This document shows, one piece after another, positions 2,193 to 39,713 of a DNA stretch of 43,403 nucleotides (positions within the stretch are counted from its first letter, which is position 1; each line of letters begins with the position of its first letter). Both the position numbers and the translations under genes were made by a program. A model generated the notes under the pieces. That model was not told where the DNA came from. It did no database searches and saw only the letters and a list, made by a program, of their open reading frames with translations. Source of the DNA: a virus; the IMG/VR virus record IMGVR_UViG_3300046557_000856, positions 1-43,403 of that record. The stretch is one strand, 5' to 3'.

Positions 2193-3070
2193 CACTGAAT
2201 CCTCCAGCCGAAGCCATACCAAAAGAAGCCTGCCGTCGCGGGGCCGATCACGGTGCTTCCAGCCGCCACGCCCGATACGGGGAGCGGCGATCCTGTCGAC
2301 GCCTGGCCGCTGCTGTTGTATGGCACAGCGAAATAGGCCCAAGACCCGCCCGATGGGAGCGGCAGACCGACGCCGGACGCGGCCGTGAGCACGCCGAACT
2401 TACCCAGCGTCGACGTGTTTACCGGCTTTGGCGCCAGCGACTGACCGACAGCCGATGACAGGAACTGCGCGGAGCCCCACATGGCCACCCACGCGCCTGC
2501 TGGCCCGGACTTACCGATGACGAGGGTGTCGCCCTGCCCCATGGCAATGGATGTCACCGAAGAGCCATTGACGAAGACGACATCGGCTCCTGCGCATTTC
2601 ACGTTGAAGCTTGCTGCCGCTCCCGACCAAATGTACAAGGTCGCACCATCTGCGACCGCGCTGAGCGCCGGGAGCGTGATGTCACCGCTGTACGTCGCAC
2701 CAAGGTCGATAAAGCTACCCACCTGCGAGGCGGTGAGCGTGAGCGGACCAGCTCCCGCGAGGTACTGCGTCGTGCTAGAGAACTGAAACCCAGCTGTCTT
2801 GATGATCTTGTTGATCGCTGCCGTCAGATTCGTCAGCAGCGTGCTCGTGGTTCCGTCATCTACTGCGTTCTGCCCCGTGTTGTTCACGATCAGCTGAGCA
2901 AGGACCGAGGACATAATCGACGACTGCCGCCACGCCTTGTTGCAAGCAGCTGATGGTGCGACACCAGACGAAAAGCCTGCACCCAGAGCGCCCAGCGCGA
3001 TCCAGTCGGTCTGGCTTAGTACGTTGGCTCCCGCCCCGACCGCAAAGGTCTGAAAATCGTTCGTTGCCAT
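2192..3070 (-). CDS. Tail fibre protein
   Basis: A 292-residue protein with the low-complexity, beta-rich, Gly/Ser/Ala/Thr-heavy composition of tail fibres, directly upstream of the fibre chaperone. The N-terminal part (to about residue 95) mentions baseplate-proximal features such as QTDWIALGALGAGF; the middle (about 110-200) resembles repeated beta-strand modules with SFIDLGATYSGDITLP; the C-terminus is Gly-rich and probably the host-contacting tip. It begins after a terminator that closes the DUF2612 gene, so expression depends on readthrough or antitermination. Receptor is unknown. Fibre tips are usually variable, so weak database similarity is expected at the C-terminus. Confidence 0.8.
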   Translation of the reverse strand: MATNDFQTFAVGAGANVLSQTDWIALGALGAGFSSGVAPSAACNKAWRQSSIMSSVLAQLIVNNTGQNAVDDGTTSTLLTNLTAAINKIIKTAGFQFSSTTQYLAGAGPLTLTASQVGSFIDLGATYSGDITLPALSAVADGATLYIWSGAAASFNVKCAGADVVFVNGSSVTSIAMGQGDTLVIGKSGPAGAWVAMWGSAQFLSSAVGQSLAPKPVNTSTLGKFGVLTAASGVGLPLPSGGSWAYFAVPYNSSGQASTGSPLPVSGVAAGSTVIGPATAGFFWYGFGWRIQ

Positions 3071-3091
3071 GTTTGGCTATCTCCAGAAACG

Positions 3092-3114
3092 AAAAAGCCG
3101 CCCGAAGGCGGCTT
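3092..3114 (-). terminator. Rho-independent terminator between baseplate and tail fibre genes
   Basis: Read on the minus strand there is a GCCGCC / GGCGGC stem with a TTCG tetraloop followed by five T. It lies between the stop of the DUF2612 gene (3135) and the start of the tail fibre gene (3070). Because the fibre genes follow in the same direction, it acts as an attenuator inside the late operon or is bypassed by an antiterminated polymerase. Confidence 0.8.
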
Positions 3115-38616: not shown

Positions 38617-38960
38617 CCCCCGACAACCGCGCTCTGTGGGAGCTGGTGGATGTGGCGAATTCATGCATAAGGCCTGAGCAAGACCTTTATACGTTTGGAT
38701 ACTCAGATGCGTCTCGTAAGTTTCGAGATTCCCTAAGAGCCATTCTTGAGCGACCCAAAGTGCTCCGTGAGGTACGCCTTTGGGATACGCAATGGATGAA
38801 CATCGTTAACCACGACAACTGTTATCGCGACTGGTCGAAGGAGGACGCTATCGCGCATGCCGTGAAGACGACAGAGGAAGCTATCGCACGGAACGTCGCT
38901 GACGGAAAGTTGCCTCCACGAAAAGACAAGAACGAATCGATGGTGAGGGGGAAGTCGTGA
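38613..38960 (+). CDS. Small hypothetical protein (115 aa)
   Basis: A 115-residue protein starting MTPDNRALWELVDVANSC. I chose 38613 because of an ATGA overlap with the preceding stop; the longer frame starts inside the neighbour. Helical, with a charged C-terminus. Not recognised. Confidence 0.6.
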   Translation: MTPDNRALWELVDVANSCIRPEQDLYTFGYSDASRKFRDSLRAILERPKVLREVRLWDTQWMNIVNHDNCYRDWSKEDAIAHAVKTTEEAIARNVADGKLPPRKDKNESMVRGKS

Positions 38961-39700
38961 GCGGTCTTCGTTGCTACTACAACGAGATCGATCCTCATTG
39001 TGCACAGTGGCTACAAAACCTGATGGACGCCGGGGAAATATCAAGAGGCGACATCGACACCAGGAGCATCGAGGATGTCACTCCGTCCGACCTTAAAAGA
39101 TATGACCAATGTCACTTCTTCGCCGGACTTGGCGGCTGGTCATACGCGCTTGGATTGGCTGATTGGGGCGACCGTCCCGTGTGGACCGGTTCCTGTCCTT
39201 GCCAGCCTTTCAGCGCGGCAGGTAAGGGAAATGGGATGGAAGACCAGCGGCATCTATGGCCCTCATGGCAGTGGCTCATCAGCGTCTGCCGACCTCCTGT
39301 TGTTTTTGGCGAGCAGGTTGTCGGAGCCGTTAAACATGGCTGGCTTGATCTCGTGGCGTCTGATTTCGAAGCCCATGGTTACGCCTTCGGGTCGGCCGCT
39401 ATTCAAGCGTCGTCCGTTGGTGCAAAACACCGACGCGAACGGATTTTCTTTGTTGCCGACGCCGAGTGGAACGAGCAATCACGGGAAGAATCACGTAGCG
39501 GGTCGCTTGGACGAATGGGGCGGATCGAGCAACCCATTCCGTGGAACGAGCCTTGGGAAAGTGCATTGTCCAGGTTTCGAGCTTTGGGTGATGGGTTACC
39601 CCGAAGCGTGGCTGGAACAGATGCCGCTCGCAACGCCATCGTCCCGCAAGCAGCGGCCTACTTCATCAAAGCCTATTCATCAAAGGACAACAACCCATGA
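38957..39700 (+). CDS. C5 cytosine DNA methyltransferase (phage type)
   Basis: A 247-residue DNA (cytosine-5) methyltransferase. FFAGLGGWSYALGLADW (motif I, residues 54-70), SCPCQPFSAAGKG (motif IV, catalytic Cys82), FGEQVV (motif VI, Glu119, with Gln where Asn is usual), and KHRRERIFFVAD (motif VIII) are all present; the end (NAIVPQAAAYFIKAY) fits motif X. The N-terminus (CYYNEIDPHCAQWLQNL...GDIDTRSIEDV) looks like motifs II and III placed before motif I. Target recognition region is very short. It probably protects phage DNA from restriction. Start is GTG at 38957. Another frame of 212 codons overlaps it. Confidence 0.88.
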   Translation: MSGLRCYYNEIDPHCAQWLQNLMDAGEISRGDIDTRSIEDVTPSDLKRYDQCHFFAGLGGWSYALGLADWGDRPVWTGSCPCQPFSAAGKGNGMEDQRHLWPSWQWLISVCRPPVVFGEQVVGAVKHGWLDLVASDFEAHGYAFGSAAIQASSVGAKHRRERIFFVADAEWNEQSREESRSGSLGRMGRIEQPIPWNEPWESALSRFRALGDGLPRSVAGTDAARNAIVPQAAAYFIKAYSSKDNNP

Positions 39701-39713
39701 CCACCGAGCGTAG
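39075..39713 (+). CDS. Overlapping reading frame inside the methyltransferase gene
   Basis: A 212-codon frame (MSLRPTLKDMTN...) that lies entirely over the methyltransferase gene except for the last 13 bases. AGGAG is nine bases before its ATG. The residues are not random: SGIYGPHGSGSSASADLLLFLASRLSEPLNMAGL, then a FSLLPTPSGTSNHG block, then CPGFELWVMGYPEAWLEQMPLATPSSRKQ. Very similar blocks (GTYGP...SSASA, the W.MG.P..W and ATPSSRKS ending) recur in proteins of other phages beside or over their cytosine methyltransferase. This suggests a conserved second gene rather than a shadow. Function unknown. Confidence 0.55.
   Translation: MSLRPTLKDMTNVTSSPDLAAGHTRLDWLIGATVPCGPVPVLASLSARQVREMGWKTSGIYGPHGSGSSASADLLLFLASRLSEPLNMAGLISWRLISKPMVTPSGRPLFKRRPLVQNTDANGFSLLPTPSGTSNHGKNHVAGRLDEWGGSSNPFRGTSLGKVHCPGFELWVMGYPEAWLEQMPLATPSSRKQRPTSSKPIHQRTTTHDHRA

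Follow-up and report, generated by a model that had tools for sequence, protein, structure and literature searches.

The stretch of DNA analysed (43,403 nucleotides, positions 1 to 43,403 of IMG/VR virus record IMGVR_UViG_3300046557_000856; hereafter the window) raised the question of whether a cytosine methyltransferase gene also encodes a second protein in another frame and, if so, what that protein does. The 43.4-kb record contained genes for integrase, excisionase, portal, terminase and YqaJ exonuclease and was therefore assigned to a temperate phage. The initial annotation had placed a 212-codon frame with its own AGGAG over the methyltransferase, and the coordinates, the ATG and the spacing of that frame were all reproduced. 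The methyltransferase frame is referred to as alpha and the second frame as beta (ORF2). Of the genes searched in the neighbourhood of the pair, none was recognised as coding for a restriction enzyme. The features of the locus were as follows:

38957..39700, + strand: alpha, C5-cytosine methyltransferase, proposed catalytic subunit, 247 aa, GTG start (PF00145, phrog_363)
38975..39139, + strand: N-terminus of alpha, in which motifs II and III precede motif I, a permuted order (M.HhaI alignment, alignments A3 and A4)
39062..39066, + strand: AGGAG Shine-Dalgarno sequence of beta, within alpha codons Arg36-Ser37 (codon enrichment)
39075..39713, + strand: beta (ORF2), embedded second frame, 212 aa, ATG start (phrog_1008, stop depletion, codon-position constraint)
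39357..39419, + strand: predicted beta hairpin in beta, residues 95-102 and 108-115 (AF2 model of alignment A2)
39450..39617, + strand: C-terminal block of beta, LPTPSGTSNHGKNHVAGRLDEWGGSSNPFRGT..HCPGFELWVMGYPEAW, proposed to combine a target-recognition module with motif IX (invariant columns, beta identity above alpha identity)
39585..39611, + strand: motif-IX-like core of beta, WVMGYPEAW (consensus in 53 homologues)
39626..39664, + strand: motif X of alpha (ARNAIVPQAAAYF), with the +1 reading ATPSSRK... in beta (alignment A3, AF2 helix)

The beta frame was offset by +1 relative to alpha (118 mod 3 = 1) and shared 626 nt with it. From its ATG it contained 212 open codons, with the AGGAG 8 nt 5' of the ATG, and its sequence includes the peptide LDEWGGSSNPFR.

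The two encoded proteins

Alpha matched PF00145 (1.8e-16, residues 76-170 only) and phrog_363 (1e-65) and contained motifs I-IV, VI, VIII and X, including PCQ (Cys82) and RxR, with motif VI in the ENV-like form EQV. It is a PF00145 C5-cytosine DNA methyltransferase with a Rossmann catalytic domain. Motif IX was absent from the alpha frame, unlike in 16 single-chain controls, and the PF00145 and PDB sequence matches of alpha both ended at motif VIII. The AF2 model of alpha superposed on M.HhaI with a Z score of 15.3 over 174 residues (rmsd 3.2); the resemblance extended in sequence from motif IV to motif VIII and in fold over most of the length, motif X helix included. This helix occupied residues 230-242 of the model, and the preceding R225 and N226 were invariant in alignment A3. 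The model of alpha alone was confident except mainly at residues 177-191 and 206-223; low confidence there, together with a PDB match stopping at motif VIII, is what one would expect of a region that a partner protein completes.

The N-terminal region of alpha (residues 7-83, 38975-39205) showed the motif order II-III-I-IV, with YYNEID... and GDIDTRSI preceding FFAGLGGW, and model residue 2 aligned to residue 32 of M.HhaI. The other alpha clade carrying the same beta block had the normal motif order. The Rossmann domain of the window alpha appears to be permuted in sequence, and the clade of phage methyltransferases to which it belongs is very common.

Beta matched phrog_1008 (1.5e-10), as did all 53 of the 53 beta sequences in alignment A2. 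The end of these 53 aligned homologues had the consensus W[LMV]MG[LYF]P..W, with W171 and G174 invariant, and sat where single-chain enzymes have RLQGFP/RLMGLP. The single-chain enzymes carried such a motif in their own frame, with no counterpart in +1. No profile match was obtained for beta against Pfam and PDB sequences, methyltransferase small domains included. The end of beta is therefore called motif-IX-like, an assignment suggested by the nine-residue pattern, by where it lies in the gene and by the fact that alpha lacks just this motif. The AF2 model of beta alone was weak (pTM 0.30; best part residues 101-110, pLDDT 92); fold searches with it gave no usable PDB match, which is no sign of a new fold. 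Beta has the look of a subunit supplying the motif IX that the methyltransferase lacks, a resemblance that the initial annotation had missed.

Coding constraint on the second frame

Stops in the +1 frame were counted and compared with synonymous shuffles in which the alpha protein and its codon usage were held fixed. For the window alone, 0 stops were observed against 2.1 expected (P = 0.024), so that the openness of the frame is only mildly unusual when judged on this sequence. Across 98 related loci, 3 stops were observed from motif IV to the ORF2 end motif against 200 expected, a pooled count that carries no probability of its own, the loci being related. The initial annotation had expected stops in relatives if the second frame were not a gene; 95 of the 98 loci contained none, against 10.8 expected, and the three loci with stops had them far on the N-terminal side, ahead of the conserved part of ORF2. 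Openness across relatives is thus far beyond chance. The +2 frame, used as an internal control in 76 loci, behaved as by chance (804 stops observed, 749 expected), and 16 ordinary single-chain methyltransferases with an in-frame motif IX gave 191 stops in +1 against 188 expected. Among these 16 controls the median longest open run in +1 was 23% of the length, and a motif-IX-like end was found in none. The loci with an open +1 frame ranged from 43% to 69% GC, including those at 43-51%.

Divergence at codon positions was compared among the window, L070-L073 and L001. The proportion of 4-fold sites of alpha that differed was 75% (99/132) in the region before beta, 55% (338/619) in the middle and 16% (69/425) in the C-terminal third, and this fall along the gene bears out the constraint at second positions of ORF2 that had been proposed. 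In the C-terminal third, position 3 of alpha (position 2 of beta) differed in 0.13-0.35 of comparisons versus 0.27-0.45 for position 1, which, as position 3 of beta, was the freest position. An ungapped block of 33 codons from 40 distinct loci was also compared in both frames: beta positions 1, 2 and 3 differed in 0.21, 0.22 and 0.42 of comparisons, identity was 71% in beta versus 53% in alpha, and beta identity exceeded alpha identity in 99% of pairs. Conservation of RLDEWGGSSNPFRGT..FELWVMGYP was likewise higher in the ORF2 frame than in the alpha frame, and 26 of the 28 invariant columns of alignment A1, which covers both alpha clades, fell at beta residues 128-179. Beta is under coding constraint exceeding that which comes from alpha.

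The start site of beta gave a further line of evidence. The alpha codon Arg36, which forms the Shine-Dalgarno sequence, was AGG in 32 of 67 loci (48%), whereas AGG made up 6.8% of the remaining Arg codons in these genes (Fisher P 2e-17), and Ser37 was AGC or AGT in 48 of 64 loci versus 40%. Much of the clade has thus kept the start site; roughly half of the loci have a codon other than AGG, and beta may start elsewhere in these.

The initial annotation had relied on four blocks described as recurring in proteins beside phage cytosine methyltransferases (GIYGP..SSASA, SLLPTPSG, LWVMG.P.AW and ATPSSRK). All four were present, but three of them, all except LWVMG.P.AW, proved to be +1 readings of alpha stretches, RHLWPSW giving GIYGPHG, FFVADAEWN giving SLLPTPSG and RNAIVPQ giving ATPSSRK. 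Conserved alpha motifs have conserved +1 shadows, and therefore recurrence of such blocks alone proves no second gene. What does show a second gene is the pattern of divergence over codon positions, along with the RLDEWGG block and the codons at the start site. That both frames are genes, an arrangement that the initial annotation had called unusual, is supported by the depletion of stops, the controls, the codon positions and the start-site codons.

Occurrence of the overlap and its interpretation

Homologues of beta were found in phages of Paracoccus, Vibrio, Pseudomonas, Salmonella, Xanthomonas, Edwardsiella and Microcystis, and the beta profile search returned 47 viral contigs. The profile scan of genomes gave 3 bacterial loci only, and the bacterial spread therefore rests on the controls and the plasmid hits. 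Alpha was in the -1 frame of beta at every fetched locus in which the alpha region was present and not frame-broken, and among the fetched loci beta was found solely over an alpha. The split layout was also present on plasmids of Lacticaseibacillus paracasei, Paenibacillus polymyxa and the archaeon Methanomethylovorans hollandica (L131, L136 and L078). Enzymes without an in-frame motif IX, from the Lacticaseibacillus plasmid, Pseudovibrio and the Methanomethylovorans plasmid, had a long open +1 frame ending in TMMGFPKGW, WMMGFPDRW and WLMGLPTNW, respectively. In two enzymes that were first sorted as lacking motif IX (L132 and L149), the motif turned out to be displaced or variant and the +1 frame was not open, and so they fit the rule linking a missing motif IX to an open +1 frame. 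The former, from an Acinetobacter indicus plasmid, is a circularly permuted single chain with motifs IX and X N-terminal, before motif I.

Gene callers often retained one frame of the pair. Beta alone was annotated ("hypothetical"), and the methyltransferase was lost, in Vibrio phages 1.236.O and 1.291.O and in Pseudomonas phage phPA-G; among the public records, L003, L004, L006 and L007 list beta only, as "hypothetical protein", with the methyltransferase unannotated. Neither frame was annotated in Salmonella phage SAP012 (L013), and in other records it was beta that was lost. Two viral contigs carried frameshifts in a G-rich stretch: in L095 (match 2501-3108) the alpha N-terminus is thereby fused to the beta C-terminus, and in L126 (match 2501-2660) the frame switches from beta to alpha; each is either an assembly error or a real mutation.

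The C-terminal third varies independently of the catalytic part of alpha. Within the permuted alpha clade, members with differing beta types had 59% identity in motifs IV-VIII and 26% in the C-terminus. Where two alpha clades share a beta type, identity between them was 36% in motifs IV-VIII and 46% in the C-terminus, and 66% in the beta block. From these comparisons the C-terminal third seems to be a specificity module. The odds are about even that a two-frame DNA module of roughly 200-250 bp, encoding the alpha C-terminus and the recognition part of beta, has been swapped whole between permuted and normal catalytic domains. If so, methyltransferases with an embedded beta would be among the commonest long same-strand overlaps in prokaryotes and phages, mostly unannotated.

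The best explanation is that the two frames encode one C5-cytosine methyltransferase, naturally divided into two subunits in the manner of the M.EcoHK31I alpha/beta enzyme, which would function as a heterodimer (probability about 0.83). Alpha would form the catalytic large domain, with the SAM pocket, Cys82 in PCQ and motifs VI, VIII and X. Beta would be translated from its own Shine-Dalgarno sequence and ATG inside the alpha message and would supply motif IX and in all likelihood also a portion of the target-recognition domain. Made from one mRNA, the two would assemble into a heterodimer whose DNA-binding small domain is completed by beta; beta would be required for activity, and the C-terminal module would set the target specificity. 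The heterodimer may methylate the phage DNA, probably to escape host restriction.

Other explanations were weighed against the same evidence. That the +1 frame is a shadow, open merely through GC-rich codon usage and the conserved methyltransferase motifs, would account for three of the four cited blocks and for the modest P of 0.024 in the window; it is extremely improbable in view of the synonymous-shuffle test over 98 loci with its +2 and single-chain controls, a C-terminal position constraint inverted relative to single coding, the enriched Shine-Dalgarno codons and a frame that is open at 43-51% GC too. A programmed +1 frameshift after motif VIII, by which motifs I-VIII and IX would be joined in one chain with no separately started beta, is very unlikely. 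Motif X, conserved downstream in the alpha frame, would then be lost, and the beta frame stays open a long way upstream and has an enriched Shine-Dalgarno sequence and start; conservation of beta that is strongest in its C-terminal third and the fusion in L095, natural or assembly-made, are the observations that such a frameshift would fit.

Beta could also be a real protein that does something else, such as regulation, inhibition or anti-restriction, and simply occupies the same DNA as the methyltransferase, as its lack of a profile match to methyltransferase small domains and the weakness of its isolated model would allow. This is unlikely, with beta found only together with alpha, alpha lacking exactly the motif at the end of beta, single-chain relatives having no beta, the beta type changing along with the alpha C-terminus, and M.EcoHK31I as a precedent. 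With beta as the second subunit of the methyltransferase, cloning that destroys the second frame, such as by codon optimisation, would probably yield a dead enzyme, and the two-frame recognition module would be an unusually clean case for the study of dual coding.

Comparison with known systems

The beta coding region of EcoHK31I is reportedly embedded in that of alpha, in another frame. According to PMC3404938, M.EcoHK31I (an alpha/beta C5 methyltransferase, YGGCCR; Lee, Kam and Shaw 1995) has a large subunit with motifs I-VIII and X and a small subunit with motif IX. Escherichia phage K1G (ORF31/ORF30, C-specific methylase and "Mte8-like protein") and Xanthomonas phage PhiXhv-5 have the same +1 overlap with both coding sequences annotated. 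The layout, from M.EcoHK31I, and the dual annotation, from K1G and PhiXhv-5, are thus already known. The beta C-terminal type of these two phages differs from that of the window (WPTP repeats, ...SRWLMG), and their records are silent on a subunit relation. In PHROGs, phrog_363 (alpha) and phrog_1008 and phrog_31772 (beta), the families matched by the window proteins, are separate "DNA methyltransferase" families whose descriptions omit the overlap. No description of the overlap in phages was found in the open-access literature, where a K1 phage paper names just "Mte8-like"; nor was one found there for the spread, the two-frame recognition module or the permuted II, III, I, IV order in the alpha clade of the window, and the search having covered open-access literature only, a missing description is weak evidence.

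M.AquI (CYCGRG) is another C5 methyltransferase naturally split into two subunits (PMC3404938). Its chain is simply cut into N- and C-terminal halves, so that the smaller subunit has motif X as well as motif IX, and it has no motif-X alpha with an embedded beta, unlike the window. The pair in the window resembles M.EcoHK31I and the related M.EaeI in layout, with two predicted polypeptides, of which the larger has motif X but no motif IX and the smaller ends in a motif-IX-like pattern. It differs from them as an orphan on a temperate phage, with no restriction enzyme recognised among the genes searched, and in its RLDEWGG-type C-terminal module, and its alpha has permuted N-terminal motifs; no EcoHK31I-like restriction-modification system was recognised among the plasmid neighbours of alpha relatives either. 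The predicted target-recognition domain lies in the large subunit of M.EcoHK31I, according to PMC3404938, whereas much of the likely recognition region in the window appears to lie in beta. Enzymes of this kind have been described as exceptions, and the layout is seen here in 98 viral, plasmid and bacterial loci.
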